64,000 nt of DNA. It comes from Paracyclopina nana. Taxonomy: Eukaryota; Arthropoda; Copepoda; Cyclopoida; Cyclopettidae. Under the pieces are notes generated by a model. It saw nothing but the letters and a program-made list of their open reading frames with translations, was not told where the DNA came from and did no database searches. The position numbers and the translations under genes were made by a program. This document shows positions 22,201-32,942 of this stretch, piece by piece. The number at the start of each line of letters is the position of its first letter. Position 1 is the first letter of the stretch. The stretch spans positions 868,001-932,000 of the forward strand of contig JAGUCH010000003.1 of NCBI GenBank assembly GCA_019096065.1, written 5' to 3'.

Positions 22201-25200
22201 GCCTTGGGCCCCAAATCAATGCCTTAATGAGTAGGTGTCTCTCGCTTGAAACGAAGCGGAAGGACTCGAGCAACCTTTTGCTTGAGGATGCCAATGCGGC
22301 GGCCATCTTGGAATTGACCAAGGAAAAATTGGCCGGTCAGGTTGTCGCAGGTAAAATAAGTTCTTCATCTTGCCCCTCAATCATGTAATTTTCGAGGTCA
22401 TTGAGCCAACCTTATGAGTTCATGTCGCCTTTCTGCCGATCTGGTTTTAAGCGCTCTTTTTAATATGTCGTTTAATTTTCAAAGGTTTGCTCTTGCCAAA
22501 TCAAGAAGATACCGTCAAGGTCTGTATGAACAAATTGAATTGCTTGCTCATGCATGCCACCAAAAAACGACCTGATGGGCCACCCTCAATCAAAGGATGC
22601 ACCATATTTTCCGAGGTGGACGAAAAGGAAAACCTGAAGAAGTTCTTTGCGGAGAATTTGGCCAAGCAAATGGTGCTCAGGGGAATGTTTGATTTCTCCG
22701 AGTGGGAGCTGCATAAACTTGTCTACGCAATTGCTCAGAAAACCGCATTGGATGACGGAACTTTGGCGCCGCCACCAAAGGCTCCGCCACGTCTGCCTAC
22801 TCCTCCGCCGCCGCAGCCACCGCAACAAAAATACGGAGGTTACTACGGCGGTCCACCTGGATACCCTCCGGTGAACCAAATGTATGATTCCTTTGCATTC
22901 ATTTACACAGTTCGTAGCTTCGCAACTCGAGAATTGGTGATCACAAAGATGGCTTTAAATAGCCTTCAAATCGATAAAAATTTTCTTAAACCAATTAGAT
23001 TTTTCATATATTGATTAGATTTTAATCAAATTGGGATGAAAATCATTTATAATTGTGCTGAAGGAGTGTTATTACAAAACCGGTCGCAATCTTAACTTAG
23101 ATGAATTCAATCTTGTAACATGCATATATTTTCTGATAGGCCTTGACTCTTCAGGAGTGCAAATGGTTAAATCAATTTCCGGCAACCATCACTACACAAA
23201 TATTTAAAAAAACTGCTGCCACTTTGCTAGCTCATTTTTTTGGGAAAATAACAAAATAGACCCACCCTAAAATTTGAAAATGCAGAAAAAGTTATTTCAA
23301 TGACTTATAGCTAGAATCCTTTGTTCATGAGATATCTGCTAATTTTCATTATCAGAAAATGTCATCACTCTATCACACTTTTTGCTTCATTTTTTAGGAT
23401 GTTACACATTTATTAAAATGAATTTATCTTTTCTAAATTCTTATGTAGCGATGGGTGCCGGAAATTGGTTCAACCATTTACATACCCTTAGCAAGGTTGC
23501 AAAGCTTTCCAAAAATATAAGTAGTTGTGGTAATCGAATTTTTCTCTGTTAGAGTGGTTACCATCAAACTGTGCATGATAGCAAAACGTGGGATTTTCAG
23601 TGGGGGGAATGCTTAAAGAAGTATTTCATTCTCTTAGTTATGACACACTTTGAAGATATTTCAAAACTATAATTAATCTGTTTCAATCCAATTTTGTAAG
23701 ACCTATTTGCAGAAAACCAAGACAGCTAGCCTGCATTCCATCCAAGTACAAAAACTGTAGCATGAGAAACACCATTTCCTGAAAGCAATGCTTCAGGCGA
23801 AAATCAAAATATATGGCTTTTTTATCAAAAAAGTGGCCAATTTAGAATCATACCAATTTAGTCACCACAACCGGTATTTGGCCGGTTTATTTAGTGCAGC
23901 AGTGCAGCCAGTGCATACCGTTTCTCACGACTCAATCGGTTTTTGTCCAAAGCTGCAAGTTAGTTGTGAACCCTTGAGCTATTTGATAAACGAAATGTAA
24001 GGCAATTTTCATCATAATTCAATCTGTCATGCCAAAGACAGGTTTCTGGATATGAAGTGACTGAATTAAGCAAATTGCCTTGACTTTCATGAAAATTGAC
24101 CAAAAGTATACCAAATGAATCCTAGAACAATTATAAAAGCTGCAAGCTTAGTCACAGCTCTTTTCTTGGTCAGTTGAAGGAGGAAATAGGCAAAAAACAT
24201 TTGTTTACTTTTGAAAAATGATGCTATGACATCATAAATGGGTGGGCCGCCATTGGCGTAAGAATTTACCCCAGAGACTTATATAACAAGAGAAGTGCTA
24301 CTGGGCGAGGCTTAAGGGGGTGCGTTTGCAGATCTGCTGCACACTCCAAAAGAGACTTCAATGGAATATTGGTCGCGGCTGGCTGAATTTGGGCCGGGGC
24401 AGACTTTTGGTTGCTAATAACTCCTAAATGAGTCCACTTAGCCGAAATAGTCCTATTTTACGAGCTGTTCAATTTTGCTAGGGCTATCTTTTGTCTTTTA
24501 TAAGTATTTCCCCAACTATTAGGAATTAAAAGTTGTAAAACAGAGGAGCCAGTTGGCGTTTTCCTTTCTGGATCAATACAGCCCGCTGGCAATTTTATTA
24601 TAACAGCTGACCCAAATGTTTTCAAAATCACTTGTAGCACTTGGCGCGCACTCGCGTGCAGTGAGAATGCAAGAAGTAGCACTTCTCTTTCTATATAAGT
24701 CTCTGATTTACCCTACTTTCATAATGGCTGCTGTGGTGGGATGGCAGTGTTTTAGACACTTCCTTTTAGAGACAAATTGTACTGCATTTTTGGCACTTCT
24801 TGGATCAAAACAGGAACTAATAAAACTAATAATTCAGAGGTCCACCTCATGCTACTTTGGCAGATATGCAAATATGCAAAAATACCGAATATTTCCTTTT
24901 GATTCAATCAGAACTCGATTTTAGTTAAATATTCAAGTACTTATTTCACAATTACTTAATTCCTTGACAATTTATTGTTCATCAAAGTTGTTTATTGCCT
25001 TCTTTTGAAGCATTTTATTTTTCCATCACTACTAGCTGCTCGGTTTGTTTTACTCTTATCTGTACAGCTCTGATAGTAGCAGCTCTCTCCAGCTGATTTG
25101 TTTGGGCATATTCTCAATTATTCTGTGGTTTTATTTTGTCTTGTGACCCCTAGCAATAATTTTCGCCCTATTTTAATGCGCTAGTTTTTTGTATTATTAT

Positions 25201-28200
25201 GCAGTCTTTGTGATCATCTATTCTAGCTCTTCTTCAGTGTGCTTTTTCGTTCTTGGGATTGCGCAACTGTTAACGTTACGTTAAAGAGCGAAATTAATCT
25301 GAAATCCTTATGTTTGACCTGATTGGCATGCCTCTCAATGGCCAATGAGGATAGATTAAGGGTACATTTTTGTCCTGTCTTTTTCGGAGCAAATTAGGAT
25401 TCCGATAAATCGAGCCTATGCTCCTAGGGCGTGAAAACAGCTCGACTCTGAGCCCGATCTTATTTGCTCCGATATTTGCTGGACAGCCTGTACAAGAAAA
25501 ATTAATAGCTGAATATGGCTTTTTAGATCATGTTTTTGTTAATGATTTTAGGATGGGCCCTGGTCCAAGTAGTGGCTATGATCAACCTCCTGCTCACGCC
25601 AAGCAGCACGAGGGCAATAATGGCCCCGCCTATTCCACGCCCATTTATGCTGACAACAAAGGTGGCGTAGATGAAGACTATGACGAGTTCGATGACCTCA
25701 CCGTAGAGGAACTAAGGTCGTTATTGGACAACTTCAAGAACCTGTCCAAAGGCGAGCAAATGGACTTAATTCGCTACATGCGCAAATTGGAGAGCACCGA
25801 CCCTGAAAAGGTCAAGTTGCTCAAGCAATCGGTCAAACCGGGGTCAAAAGATGACCAAAGGTGAATAAACTTTGTTTATTAAGCGCGCGCGCGCATCAGC
25901 TGAAATGTAACAAAAGCGCACGCGCACCAGCTGCCTTTTAACAGACTGATTTTTCATCGCGGGGCTTCGTTTGATACATCGATTCGGGTTTGATTTATCA
26001 ATTTTGGGCCCAAACCCCTTGTCACCATGTGGTTTGATGGGGTTTCAAGTTTGGCGGCCCCCAGGATGCTCTAAGGGGGTCAAATGGGGCCTGGTCTTAT
26101 CAGCTGATTGAAACAAGGCAAATCTTTGCGGGGGCATGGCTGGAGGAGTGGAGGGCAGCCAAAATCAACTATGCCCCAATTCTTGAGGCCCCTGGGGGGT
26201 GTCCAGATGCCAGGGGAAAAAAGTTGGAAAAAGTCCTCGACAAGGCCAAAAAAAGCCAAAATTTGCATTTTCGGACCCAACTTTGAGGCCGATTATCTCC
26301 AAAGGCTACGGATGGATTTTGGATTTTTTTGCTCCAAATGGCAGATAAAGATCCAAATTAGTACCAAGAAAAAATTTGGGATGGTGTTATTCCTCGTTTG
26401 TCCGCTACAAGCTCTCAAAGTTGGACAAAATTCACTTTTTCACAGTAGTAACAAAATGGCTACTTTTCTTCTGTCAAAAATTCTCGATTGGTCACAGTGG
26501 CCAAGTTGATGGCTGGAGTGTGGGCCATTTGGTCTGGAGGACACCTCTAGGGTCTCAGTGGTTGGTATCAGGTCCAACTTCCTTGGTAGGGCTAGGCCAG
26601 GCCCAGCCAGGAGCCTTGGAGCCGAGCCATCGCGACGGCCATTTCGATTCAGTGGCAATTCCAAGGGCCTTGCTGCCAATTCTGGGGACAGATTGTTGAC
26701 CATTTGGCCTTGATCACTCCTTTAGGGTCCCAACAGATGATTTCAAGGCTAACAGTCAAGGTACAGCAAGGTCAGCTTGATCCAGGGGGCTCGGAGTTCA
26801 CTTGTGGCATTGGTGATTTGGCTACAGAAAGTCTTCGAGGGCCTCGATGGCCAAGTTCTCTGATCAGGTGAGGATTTTTTGAGCTGTATCACTCCTTTGG
26901 CATCCCATGAGATGATTTCAAGTTCAACTTTGATGGTGATCATCAGCTGACTGCTTCCAGGGCTACCAGAGCTTATTTGCCAACTCAGCTGCCAATGGTT
27001 CAATGAAAGGCAGCATGGATCACAGCCAAGACCAAGGTTGGAAAGTGGATTTTTTAGGCTGAATCAACTCAAATGGATGCAAGGAGATGAAAGAAAGTCT
27101 ATTTTTCATGGTGTTATGCTCCTTTCTTCAACCAGGAGTGCCAAAGCTTCATGGGAACAAAAGTCGAAAATGGCTTCAATAAAGAGCTCCTTTGATTGCA
27201 GCCAAGACGAGCAATGGCAAGTCACTTTTTTGCTCCAGCTCAGCTCAGTTGGTGCCAAGGAGGCTGTGGAAGGTGTAAACATTCAGGTGTTGTGCACCTT
27301 TCATGAATCTGGATATGCAAAACTTTACTGTGACAGCCAGAGCTCTTATAATAACAACTGCTACTCGCAAACGGAAAACGCTTCGCGCTCAAAAATTCAC
27401 GGATGGAACTCGACTTTTTTGGCCTGGATCACCTCAGTGGGTGCCAAAGAGAATTTAGAAGGTGTAAAATTTCAGGTGTTATGAAAAATGGAGAACACCC
27501 GAAATTTTTCACATTCCACAGCCTCTTTGGCACCAATGGAGTTGAGCTGGACCAAAAAAGTCAAGTTCAATCCGCGATTTGCTGTGCGCGAGCCCATTTT
27601 CATCCGCGAGTAGTAGCATATAGTATAATAGTGGCCATCACTCCATAAAACTTTGCCCAGTCCAGAATCATGAAATATGGAGAACACCCGAAATTTTTCA
27701 CATTCCACAGCCTCTTTGGCACCAATGGAGTTGAGCTGGACCAAAAAAGTCAAGTTCAATCCGCGATTTGTCGAGCGCGAGCCCATTTTCATCCGCGAGT
27801 AGCAGCATATAGTATAACAGTGGCCATCACTCCATAAAACTTTGCCCAGTCCAGAATCATGAAAAATGGAGAACACCCGAAATTTTTCACATTCCACAGC
27901 CTCTTTGGCACCAATGGAGTTGAGCTGGACCAAAAAAGTCAAGTTCAATCCGCGATTTGTCGAGCGCGAGCCTTTTTCATCCGTGAGTAGCAGTTGTTAT
28001 TATTTGAGCTCTGGCTATCACATGAAAGTTTTGCGCATCCAGAACCATGAAAGGTGCACAACACCTGAAAGTTTACACCTTCTAAATTCTCTTTGGCACC
28101 CCCTGAGCTGAGCTGGAGCAAAAAAGTGACTTGCCATTGCTCATCTTGGCTGCAATCAAAAGAGCTCTTTATTGAATTTATTTTCAATTTTTGTTCATAC

Positions 28201-29677
28201 GAAACTTTGGCACTCCTGGTTGAAGAAGGGAGCATAACACCATGAAAAATAGACTTTCTTTCATCTCCTTGCATCCATTTGAGTTGATTCAGCCTAAAAA
28301 ATCCACTTTCCAACCTTGGTCTTGGCTGTGATCCATGCTGCCTTTCATTGAACCATTGGCAGCTGAGTTGGCAAATAAGCTCTGGTAGCCCTGGAAGCAG
28401 TCAGCTGATGATCACCATCAAAGTTGAACTTGAAATCATCTCATGGGATGCCAAAGGAGTGATACAGCTCAAAAAATCCTCACCTGATCAGAGAACTTGG
28501 CCATCGAGGCCCTCGAAGACTTTCTGTAGCCAAATCACCAATGCCACAAGTGAACTCCGAGCCCCCTGGATCAAGCTGACCTTGCTGTACCTTGACTGTT
28601 AGCCTTGAAATCATCTGTTGGGACCCTAAAGGAGTGATCAAGGCCAAATGGTCAACAATCTGTCCCCAGAATTGGCAGCAAGGCCCTTGGAATTGCCACT
28701 GATTCGAAATGGCCGTCGCGATGGCTCGGCTCCAAGGCTCCTGGCTGGGCCTGGCCTAGCCCTACCAAGGAAGTTGGACCTGATACCAACCACTGAGACC
28801 CTAGAGGTGTCCTCCAGACCAAATGGCCCACACTCCAGCCATCAACTTGGCCACTGTGACCAATCGAGAATTTTTGACAGAAGAAAAGTAGCCATTTTGT
28901 TACTACTGTGAAAAAGTGAATTTTGTCCAACTTTGAGAGCTCGTAGCGGACAAACGAGGAATAACACCATCCCAAATTTTTTCTTGGTACTAATTTGGAT
29001 CTTTATCTGCCATTTGGAGCAAAAAAATCCAAAATCCATCCGTAGCCTTTGGAGATAATCGGCCTCAAAGTTGGGTCCGAAAATGCAAATTTTGGCTTTT
29101 TTTGGCCTTGCCGAGGACTTTTTCCAACTTTTTTCCCCTGGCATCTGGACACCCCCCAGGGGCCTCAAGAATTGGGGCATAGTTGATTTTGGCTGCCCTC
29201 CACTCCTCCAGCCACGCCCCCGCAAAGATTTGCCTTGTTTCAATCAGCTGATAAGACCAGGCCCCATTTGACCCCCTTAGAGCATCCTGGGGGCCGCCAA
29301 ACTTGAAACCCCATCAAACCACATGGTGACAAGGGGTTTGGGCCCAAAATTGAAAAATCAAACCCGAATCGATGTATCAAACGAAGCCCCGCGATGAAAA
29401 ATCAGTCTGTTAAACAAAATCGCACGCGCAACAGCTGTTGGTAATTAAAGGAGGCATGACTTCATAAGGTTTGCTCAATGTAGCTTCTTTTTCTCTGTGT
29501 ATTAGCAAAACTCCCATTAAAAACAATGACAGCCGGCCAAGTTCACAAGCATCTAGCTCTAATTCGGGGTCTAGAAGTTTGCTCGGAGGGCCGCCCCCTC
29601 CGCCTCCACCTCCAGAAGAGCAAGCTTATCCTCCTCATCAGGGTCGATATCCGCAGCAAGGAAGAGGCCATTATTAA
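10300..29677 (+). CDS. Large RS-rich protein with matrin/U1-type zinc fingers
   Basis: Fourteen exons: 10300-12113, 12175-14797, 15318-15564, 15628-15860, 15924-16132, 17147-17311, 17511-17666, 18007-18221, 18289-18572, 21414-21974, 22122-22350, 22485-22881, 25552-25860 and 29506-29677. Phases agree at every junction, and the total is about 2,537 residues. Features: acidic N-terminus, Ser/Arg/Lys-rich segments, a C2H2 finger (CYICNVSLEGKPNLKTHLGG, about 757-782), an Ala-Pro-Val-Pro run near residue 990, proline clusters, a second finger (CEICNLTAVGKSNLDAHREG, about 1526-1552) and a degenerate CLLC...H module at about 1610. RS repeats lie at about 1945 and 2092, a Trp-rich segment (EEWRIFWEKRY, DWIPYWAKK) at 1995-2045, and a helical region before polyproline stretches. 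Fingers of this kind with RS repeats suggest a nuclear RNA-processing role. I do not recognise a vertebrate orthologue. From memory it may match insect proteins called CG7065-like, but I am unsure. The gene could be two genes if the 520-bp intron 2 is misjudged. Confidence 0.78.
14798..15317 (+). other. Intron 2 of the zinc-finger gene
   Basis: This 520-bp intron has a GTAAGT donor and a CCCTTTAG acceptor. It contains an AATAAA near 14960 that could allow early polyadenylation after exon 2, giving a shorter protein with only the first zinc finger. Otherwise I see nothing in it. Confidence 0.5.
16169..16830. repeat. Foldback (MITE-like) element in intron 5
   Basis: The ends are inverted: CTGGTAAAAGGCAC at 16169-16182 and GTGCCTTTTACCAG at 16817-16830. 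Further inverted GGCACC/GGTGCC words lie just inside, so about 80-100 bp at each end could pair. The middle contains a short direct repeat of TAAGTTAAGYTGCCAA near 16506 and 16540. No target duplication is evident and there is no coding frame. Confidence 0.6.
17667..18006 (+). other. Intron 7 of the zinc-finger gene
   Basis: This 340-bp intron has a patch of alternating GCGC words at about 17785-17850 (GCGCGCGCTC, GAGCGCACGC) that could form small hairpins. Similar GCGCACGCGC words flank the palindrome in intron 13. Nothing else is visible. Confidence 0.4.
18950..19020 (+). repeat. tRNA-like module (degenerate)
   Basis: It has a B-box-like GGTTCAAATCC and an anticodon-arm-like TTGGTTTCTAGATTCAGCCAA, but a poor A-box and no paired acceptor stem. 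It is related to 55370-55440. I regard it as a SINE head or tRNA pseudogene, not a functional tRNA. Confidence 0.5.
19075..19145 (+). repeat. tRNA-like module (degenerate)
   Basis: It contains TTAGCGGTTTGAG (A-box-like) and GAGGTTCGAATCT (B-box-like) at the right spacing. The acceptor stem does not pair, so a SINE head or tRNA pseudogene is the best reading. Confidence 0.5.
19463..19532 (-). repeat. tRNA-like module, SINE head (minus strand)
   Basis: Read on the minus strand it gives ATAGCTCAGTGGTTAGAGC (A-box) and GAGGTTCGAATCTTGG (B-box), with an anticodon arm TTGGA-ATGCTAA-TCCAA. The acceptor stem is not complementary and the T stem is imperfect. The sequence following it on the minus strand is shared with the body after the tRNA-like module at 55505, as in a tRNA-derived SINE. 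Confidence 0.6.
19678..20430. repeat. Array of inverted TGTCGGACATTTT words
   Basis: About 750 bp is built from variants of TGTCGGACATTTTACAACTT and its reverse complement. The left block (19733-19910) and right block (20240-20425) are mutually complementary over about 170 bp, including the unusual segments CTACTGCGTTTTTTGCCCGA and CCCCCTAAAATG-like ends, so the whole forms a long foldback. A third partial block lies at 21083-21195. There is no coding frame, and there are no unique spacers as in CRISPR. Confidence 0.75.
20491..20878. mobile_element. Small TA-flanked inverted-repeat element (Tc1/mariner-like MITE)
   Basis: The 388-bp segment begins CATTCTGTCCGATTAAAATT and ends with the reverse complement of CAGTCTGTCCGTTAAAAATT, each followed inward by GGACGGT. 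It is bordered by TA on both sides (20489-20490 and 20879-20880). TA duplications and short inverted ends fit Tc1/mariner-type non-autonomous elements. It contains no transposase and is nested in the larger intron-9 element. Confidence 0.6.
23138..23505. repeat. Inverted-repeat element in intron 12
   Basis: About 60 bp at each end is inverted: AATGGTTAAATCAATTTCCG on the left (from 23162) matches, in reverse complement, CGGAAATTGGTTCAACCATT on the right (to about 23480). Weaker pairing continues outward to CCTTG/CAAGG. The size and the lack of coding sequence indicate a MITE. The element boundaries are approximate, and no target duplication was found. Confidence 0.6.
24272..24705. mobile_element. 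434-bp hAT-like MITE, copy in intron 12
   Basis: Terminal inverted repeats of about 30 bp begin CAGAGACTTATATA, with the two ends differing at two positions. The element is flanked by a perfect 8-bp duplication ATTTACCC (24264-24271 and 24706-24713). An 8-bp duplication and a CAG terminus are typical of the hAT superfamily. It has the same length and near-identical sequence as 32509-32942. No transposase is encoded, so it is non-autonomous. Confidence 0.85.
25942..29409. mobile_element. 3.47-kb palindromic transposon with TTAA duplication, in intron 13
   Basis: The element starts CAGACTGATTTTTCATCGCG and ends with the exact reverse complement. It is bordered by TTAA on both sides (25938-25941 and 29410-29413). 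The terminal inverted repeats are very long: about 1.3 kb of each arm (25942-27225 and 28110-29409) is nearly identical, with one mismatch in the first 130 bp. The centre is a 189-bp satellite. TTAA duplication is the mark of piggyBac- or Kolobok-type cut-and-paste elements, but no transposase is present. It lies inside a transcribed intron, so the pre-mRNA could fold into a long hairpin. Confidence 0.85.
27491..28057. repeat. 189-bp tandem satellite in the palindrome centre
   Basis: Three units start at 27491, 27680 and 27869, each opening GAGAACACCCGAAATTTTTC. The first two are nearly identical and the third drifts at its far end. The period of 189 is 63 codons, so one minus-strand frame stays open through all three units. 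Diverged units of the same period occur in opposite orientation in the left arm (27220-27480). I see no start context, splice signals or known domain and treat it as non-coding. Confidence 0.8.
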
Positions 29678-30162: not shown

Positions 30163-31246
30163 CAGAGACTTAGATTACTAGAGAAGCGAAATTACGTGAC
30201 GTCATAGGGGGTGCGTGCCTCTTTTTTGGGACGCTCCAAAAGAGAATACTATGGCTTTTTGGCGGTGGCTGCCTGAGTTTGGGCTGGGGCTGACTTTTCA
30301 TTCCAAATATTTCAGAAATGATCCATTTGTGATCAATGTCATGTATAGTTTGAATGTAAGTTGACCAAGTGCCTCTAACTTTCATTTTTGACAGTTTTAA
30401 GGTTCTTATTGAAAGTTTCAACATATTTAAGAATCATTTTTATGGTACAGCCATTTTTTCGTTGTTAGCTATGCGCCCCTGGAAATGGCCAAACGATTAC
30501 AGATAAAGTCAATTCTTCGATTTATATGATTAAACTTGCGAATCTGGTTACTCTGATATCATTTGACGGAAAATCTCGGCCCCAAGGAAACCAAGCTAGT
30601 ATGTCTAATCTCTTTCTGATATAGCGCTGATTTCGGCGTAACCCAAAATGGGATTTTTAATGTCAAAAAAATGCCGAGTGTGGCATTTTTTGAAAGTATA
30701 CGTCTGTAATAAAGTAATGAAAAAGATAACTTATTGAAGCGTAGCAGAAAAGTGGAATGTTTACATTTTTAATTCGCTTCTCTTATAGACAAAAGTATCA
30801 TAACAATGATACGCCATCAAGTGACATTACTGGAGAAATACTTGGGATTTCAGGGTTCACGGTTTACACAACCGTACTACTTTTTTGAGGCTGAATTTAA
30901 AAAGAAGAATCAAAATAATCTCCAGACTTCTCAATTGGAGTGCCAAAAAACTTGCTCCATTGATCTTAATGATTTCTAACAGTTTAGAAAACTTGTAGCC
31001 AACACGAAACTAAAAAAATTGCTAATGCACACAAAAATTGCCCTAAGATCGGTCCTTTTTTATCCTTTTCTTGTTAGCCGATGTAAAAGATCCAAAATTC
31101 ACTGCACGCTCACATCAAGGGATCTTGTAGCACTGAATTTTGAATCGACTACTCCCTAATCCCAAATGTTTCAACTTTCCCTCCGCTAGGCGTGCTACTT
31201 GCGTTTGTTATTGTTATGTTACTGTTGTGAATAATCTAAGTCTCTG
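30163..31246. mobile_element. 1,084-bp hAT-like non-autonomous element
   Basis: The 15-bp terminal inverted repeats CAGAGACTTAGATTA are perfect, with a perfect 8-bp duplication GGTTCACA outside (30155-30162 and 31247-31254). The left 200 bp is related to the 434-bp elements (shared words GGGGGTGCGT, CTCCAAAAGAGA, TTTGGGCTGGGGC), so it is a longer relative. No long coding frame remains. Confidence 0.85.
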
Positions 31247-32330: not shown

Positions 32331-32508
32331 TAGGAAATCTTTTAAACTACAAGTAGTTTAGAGAACCAAGGAGAACCAAAAGATACTCCACCTCTATTCA
32401 GAGAACCAGCCAATTTATATTGTGAGCCCACCTAGACAAGGCAGTTCTCAGCCCTCCATGGTTTCGACTAAAATCCGCTATTAGAAATATGGCGCTTCTA
32501 GTTTCGCC

Positions 32509-32942
32509 CAGAGACTTATATAACAAGAGAAGTGCTACTGGGCGAGGCTTAAGGGGGTGCGTTTGCAGATCTGCTGCACGCTCCAAAAGAGACTACAATG
32601 GAATTTTGGTGCGGGCTGGCTGAATTTGGGCTGGGGCAGACTTTTGGTTGCTAATAACTCCTAAATGAGTCCACTTAGCCAAAATAGTCCTATTTTACGA
32701 GGTGCTCAATTTTGCTAGGGCTATCTTTTGTCTTTTATAAATATTTTCACAACTTTAAGGAATTAAAAGTTATAAAACAGAGGTGCCAGTTGGCGTTTTC
32801 CTTTCTGGATCAATACAGCCCGCTGTCAATTTTATTAGAACAGCTGACCCAAATGATTTCAAAATCTCTAGTAGCACTTGGCGCGCGCTCGCGTGCAGTG
32901 AGAATGCAAGAAGTAGCACTTCTCTTTCTATATAAGTCTCTG
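32509..32942. mobile_element. 434-bp hAT-like MITE, second copy
   Basis: It has exactly the same length as the copy at 24272-24705, the same CAGAGACTTATATA ends and only scattered differences. Its perfect 8-bp duplication is GTTTCGCC (32501-32508 and 32943-32950). It is inserted inside the 1,900-bp element, so it arrived later. Confidence 0.88.

Follow-up and report, generated by a model that had tools for sequence, protein, structure and literature searches.

Based on our analysis of the window, a stretch of 64,000 nucleotides of the Paracyclopina nana genome (C3:868001-932000), we propose that the near-palindrome at 25942-29409 is very probably one copy of a family of non-autonomous, foldback-type DNA transposons that target TTAA and whose arms are homogenised within copies. 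Read directly, the element is 3468 bp long, has one TTAA on either side and ends in identical 14-bp termini, CAGACTGATTTTTC, in inverted orientation; the coordinates, exact inverted termini and TTAA flanks given by the first-pass annotation all proved correct. Self-BLAST aligned the left 1539 bp with the inverted right 1538 bp at 96.0% identity with one gap, and an alternative alignment gave arms of 1446 bp at 97% identity, separated by 586 bp. The near-identity claimed for about 1.3 kb per arm holds for the outer 1259 bp, which are 98.73% identical (16 differences), the inverted repeat as a whole being somewhat longer. At the centre lies a 189-bp tandem repeat, present in 2.7-3.4 copies according to TRF. 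The parts of the element are as follows.

25938..25941, no strand: left TTAA target duplication (read from the sequence; all 20 two-ended copies have TTAA at either end)
25942..27480, plus strand: left palindrome arm, 1539 bp (self-BLAST, 96.0%; outer 1259 bp, 98.73%)
27481..27993, plus strand: tandem repeat of 189-bp units at the centre, 2.7 copies with 96% matches (TRF, genome search)
27872..29409, minus strand: right palindrome arm, 1538 bp, its inner end overlapping the repeat array (self-BLAST)
29410..29413, no strand: right TTAA target duplication (read from the sequence)

Because of the length of the inverted repeat and the existence of a family, chance can be excluded as the origin of the palindrome. 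As seen by eye, a 25-bp direct repeat with 2 mismatches hugs the element (25909-25933 and 29413-29437) and has a partial third copy upstream; the insertion target in the window appears to be a short local repeat, rather than a longer target duplication. Farther out, the element is flanked by a 300-bp direct repeat (24265-24564 and 32502-32801; 94% identity, 8.2 kb apart), to which a 91-bp stretch at 30231-30321 is related.

The family was traced through the 92 Mb of the genome searched (10 contigs). A search with one arm scored 40 places among 125 candidates at 95-100% identity, including the window's own two, and a pattern describing the end structure found 53 ends in the whole genome vs 1 with the reversed control. 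By our own count, 44 of these ends are of the window type and 9 are of a diverged type that starts with CAGACC or CAGACTAAG. The window-type subfamily comprises 24 loci on eight contigs, 20 of them two-ended and 4 with one matching end. All 20 two-ended copies have TTAA on both sides; 19 are informative, the copy at C3:5072520, whose two flanks are inverted copies of the same sequence, being left out. In these 19, the short flanks inspected by eye, about 10 bp on each side, differ from copy to copy, and a single TTAA in a paralogous stretch on C4 is the unoccupied counterpart of the C3:5072520 insertion site. A mobile element that targets TTAA had been proposed from the window, with a genome-wide search by one arm as the way to check it, and the search indeed returned many dispersed copies with common boundaries and TTAA flanks, rather than copies lacking both. 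Two pattern matches were rejected as family ends: C7:6808250, a one-mismatch match that lacks an arm match, resembles kelch-type exons by eye and is put down to chance, and C8:345192, a one-mismatch match to a related end pattern, again without an arm match.

Eighteen of the 19 copies measured are 2999-4904 bp long, and C8_31k reaches 7519 bp. Besides the window copy, 18 two-ended copies, C2_3021k not among them, were analysed for inverted repeats: in 17 the best one spans 1222-2072 bp, the length for C3_5073k including 320 bp of flank, and the self-alignment of the 18th, C2_11340k, runs from end to end. The other copies carry related repeat units and differing centres, and extra sequence with inverted repeats of its own is found inside the 7.5-kb C8 copy and at C4:2114357, where the far end lies behind about 5 kb more sequence. 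MITEs stay below about 600 bp, and at 3468 bp the window copy is not a short element of this kind; its 1539-bp arms are far longer than the inverted repeats of a MITE, as had been remarked. It resembles foldback elements in that long terminal inverted repeats (TIRs) form most of it (arms of 1539 bp in 3468 bp), in that tandem repeats whose number varies between copies lie in or beside the TIRs, and in that the frames listed, most of them judged by eye, show no conserved coding capacity. With TTAA duplicated at insertion in 20 of 20 two-ended copies, it also behaves as a TTAA-targeting cut-and-paste element. Two side observations concern individual loci: a truncated copy on C2 (L060, C2:8810500-8815000) lies just upstream of what by eye is a likely ribosomal protein L32 gene, and a 1.4-kb minisatellite of 9-bp units on C3 (L072, 4442-5841) lies between both ends of a diverged-type element.

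Galileo of Drosophila belongs to the P superfamily; together with Tetris it is the closest precedent for the family described here. Tetris, a foldback element of Drosophila virilis, is likewise non-autonomous, with no transposase found and a foldback architecture; it has tandem repeats of about 220 bp in its TIRs, where our family has units of about 190 bp, and kilobase-size satellite-like arrays derived from its tandem unit, similar to the arrays here (PMC4079207). The same work reports that the repeats group together in 2 of 3 complete Tetris copies, taken as possible homogenisation, and that foldback elements are placed mostly in the Mutator superfamily, with exceptions (PMC4079207). Tetris itself makes target duplications of 8-10 bp, in contrast to TTAA here, and its membership of Mutator was suggested; the two are likened by description and not by sequence (PMC4079207). 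For GalileoN, two patterns of arm similarity are reported, and both also occur in our family; the reverse pattern marks inversion breakpoints there, whereas here it fits a copy with unequal arms that has moved or been duplicated (PMC2775673). Long-TIR piggyBac elements share the TTAA target duplication, but their longest reported TIR is 528 bp vs arms of 1539 bp here, and their reported 5' end motifs are CACTA, CCCTC, CCCTT and CCCAT (PMC10813416), whereas our family ends in CAGAC, which is none of these, and has no transposase found. The foldback kind of element is thus already known, and the distinctive points are the TTAA target and the measurable homogenisation of the arms. In the titles and abstract openings searched, a scope that leaves most subscription journals outside, no TTAA-targeting foldback family is described, a weak indication that the family may be unreported so far. 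The 20 two-ended copies in one assembly let arm homogenisation be measured directly, since it can be read from inherited arm differences, from private substitutions found in both arms and from copies of mixed arm ancestry.

The window copy is a young insertion, its age being relative and not clocked, and expressed as a distance to sister arms of 3 to 7 per 1259 sites. Over these 1259 sites, 5 differences separate its left arm from the right arms of C5_110k and C8_31k, which are identical to each other, while its right arm is 3 differences away from the left arm of C8_31k and 7 from that of C5_110k; the window arms are therefore 0.2-0.6% from the matching arms of the two sister copies. The closest arms are the right arm of C8_31k for the window left arm and the left arm of C8_31k for the window right arm. 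Eleven of the 16 differences between the window arms fall in a block at 1182-1249, and since the same sites differ within both sister copies, this block predates the insertion. Of the changes private to the window copy, two are confined to the left arm and one to the right arm, and one, at position 269, is present in both. The first-pass annotation had offered youth or gene conversion as alternatives; the youth of this insertion agrees with the sister-arm distances, and for the family as a whole both apply and are not exclusive, the window copy keeping its older block of differences.

To compare arms, we aligned 44 arms from 22 copies, three of the right arms being partial (C4_2114k from position 58, C3_9137k from 216 and C2_8811k from 398). 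The arm tree was built by FastTree with the one-armed C4_1980k and C5_7274k excluded; private substitutions were counted over sites 1-1250, four private sites at position 1259 of C2_3021k having been dropped as an alignment edge. Mean arm divergence over the 22 copies is 0.86% within copies and 2.60% between copies. In 12 of the 22, the two arms are mutual nearest neighbours; 2000 random pairings gave 0.45 such copies on average and at most 3. Seventeen substitutions, spread over 9 copies, are private to one copy yet present in both of its arms, vs 37 present in one arm only. From the mutual pairs and the both-arm private substitutions, we infer that arms have been copied onto each other, whether within the present copy or earlier, in a parent outside the sample, where a given both-arm substitution could have been homogenised already. 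Arm-to-arm homogenisation is well supported by these comparisons, while some part of the arm identity could come from assembly or polishing. Since 10 of the 22 copies, the window copy included, lack mutual nearest arms, homogenisation is incomplete, neither continuous nor carried through. Gene conversion or template switching, acting inside one element or between sister chromatids, may be what keeps the arms alike.

A related scheme, which we regard as rather doubtful, is that movement or repair itself makes the arms identical: After excision or a break, one arm would template the other through a fold-back intermediate and so renew the palindrome, and occasional copying into the flank would give an inverted duplication such as that at C3:5072520. 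Recombination between TIRs within elements has been reported in bacterial IS (PMC3004938). It is improbable, on the other hand, that the arms are alike simply because all insertions are recent, with no copying between arms at all. This explanation would account for the window copy, which has 99.4-99.8% arm identity to its sisters and inherited 11 of its 16 arm differences, and for the copies without mutual nearest arms; but in C1_9031k, and likewise in C8_193k, only 1 difference separates the two arms of the copy, whereas their closest other arms, which are each other's, are 99.13-99.21% identical, and parallel mutation would by a rough estimate give about 0.01 both-arm private substitutions rather than 17. 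We thus retain homogenisation within copies. One pair of copies on C7 (L021/L023, C7:3306600-3354800) illustrates the reverse pattern: the two lie about 42 kb apart in opposite orientation and are 99.87% identical over 2999 bp, and their arms differ within each copy and match left-to-right between copies. An inversion by ectopic recombination, the explanation given for Galileo, was rejected for this pair, as it predicts left-to-left matches; because of the left-to-right arms and the 99.87% identity in reverse orientation, inverted duplication or local transposition fits better.

The element sits in a predicted intron, and the features concerned are as follows.

25409..25860, plus strand: open frame with a predicted upstream exon (list of open reading frames; no Pfam match at E 0.01)
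25861..29505, plus strand: predicted host intron, 3645 nt, which would shrink to about 173 nt if the element and one TTAA were removed (GT...AG, in-phase frames)
29506..29677, plus strand: predicted downstream exon with a stop codon at its end, perhaps the last exon (list of open reading frames, in-phase join)

The intron is bounded by GT at 25861-25862 and AG at 29504-29505, and by hand the flanking frames join in phase. The earlier placement in an intron of a zinc-finger gene is in this respect upheld as a prediction from the sequence alone, and the link to the zinc-finger frames is putative. The upstream frames sent to Pfam gave two zf-met matches, of which one passes the cut-off and the other does not, and a zf-C2H2_jaz match that narrowly misses its cut-off, jaz being a zinc finger described as binding dsRNA; some other upstream frames are RS-rich by eye. 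The predicted fold gives 1484 of the 1539 bases of the left arm a partner at or close to the mirror position, with an MFE of -3079 kcal/mol, a value taken without a shuffled control. The predicted intron RNA forms one exterior helix, 25862-29477, leaving about 31 nt outside. We suggest that the element landed recently in a short intron and that the transcript, folding back as predicted, would draw the intron ends close together, so that the host gene is probably affected little or not at all by the insertion. An argument against complete neutrality is that base 25862, within the splice donor, is paired in the predicted fold, and a fold that starts there could hinder splicing.

The first-pass annotation raised hpRNA/siRNA processing and ADAR editing of the hairpin; that the insertion has turned into a regulatory hairpin locus for the host gene, as a source of hpRNA/siRNA or as an editing substrate, we consider quite improbable. 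Its position in a predicted intron, the near-complete predicted pairing and the zf-met and sub-cut-off jaz matches of the upstream frames would suit such a role, provided that these frames belong to the gene that has the intron; but the element is a repeat present at many other places, it inserted recently and gives no sign of being conserved or used, and the zinc-finger frames are only putatively part of the same gene.

Least probable is that the palindrome is an inverted duplication made by the assembly. A structure of the kind that misassembly can yield is seen at C3:5072520, where 1469 bp of flank, TTAA included, recur inverted on the other side of the element at 100% identity. The same end sequence is, however, found at 24 loci spread over eight contigs, 19 two-ended copies have short flanks that are not alike, and the two arms in the window disagree at 16 of the outer 1259 sites and at more inside. 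Moreover, a paralogue on C4 that is 89-93% identical has the plain order with one TTAA (L052/L053, C3:5071016-5077976, vs L074, C4:190900-191350). With the parts ordered by eye, C4 reads X-TTAA-Y and C3 reads X-element-inverted X-Y, which accounts for the C3 junctions as an insertion plus an inverted duplication. At this one locus, either the palindrome provoked the inverted duplication or the assembly is wrong; for the window element we keep to the transposon family.

The repeat units of the centre have relatives of about 190 bp elsewhere in the genome, mostly at 70-77% identity in the array loci listed. From C1:8349066, 191-bp units follow directly after a diverged arm (82.6%) with a TTAACAGACCC end, and in this region (L063 and L068-L071, C1:8347000-8374500, read in parts) array matches recur, with interruptions, over about 23 kb; no second arm was found at the far side of the array in the parts read. 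Comparable junctions between arm and array are present in L065 on C3 and in L064 at 10.42 Mb of C1. Because arms border arrays, it would be reasonable for the element to have given rise to the arrays and not the reverse. A changing number of internal units of about 190 bp may have produced copies of different length and seeded the satellite-like arrays. This would be a second case, beside Tetris, of foldback internal repeats as satellite-like arrays.

The Kolobok and Sola3 superfamilies also use TTAA targets. Both are listed among the superfamilies of insect MITEs. We suggest that a transposase supplied in trans would cut the ends of the element and insert it at TTAA. Stop-to-stop frames of at least 120 aa were listed in 37 loci or pieces, that is, the 24 subfamily loci and diverged relatives, with the window copy and C2_3021k covered in part and the window copy's own frames listed separately; the 116 frames fell into 41 clusters, low-complexity frames left out. 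No transposase was found among the ten frames tested against Pfam, one of which had two weak matches below the cut-off, or by eye among the remaining clusters, where a gene with short exons could escape. Profile searches of the genome with PF13843 (DDE_Tnp_1_7) and with PF20700, which we presume to be linked to Kolobok, gave 0 candidates each, the control genomes being equally silent with both. A search for an autonomous transposase with the same ends had been advised; no such partner appeared through ends with at most 2 mismatches, the related end pattern or the structured end pattern, nor was a transposase recognised inside the long, one-ended and diverged loci that were read. Near a diverged-type end on C3, a 478-aa frame (L075, 3-1436, near 6183000-6184436) matches Monjiviricetes_fusion, a viral fusion glycoprotein, at E 1.4e-37. 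On C2, a protein kinase match at E 1.3e-24 (L076, 4134-4799) lies between two diverged-type ends of the same orientation.
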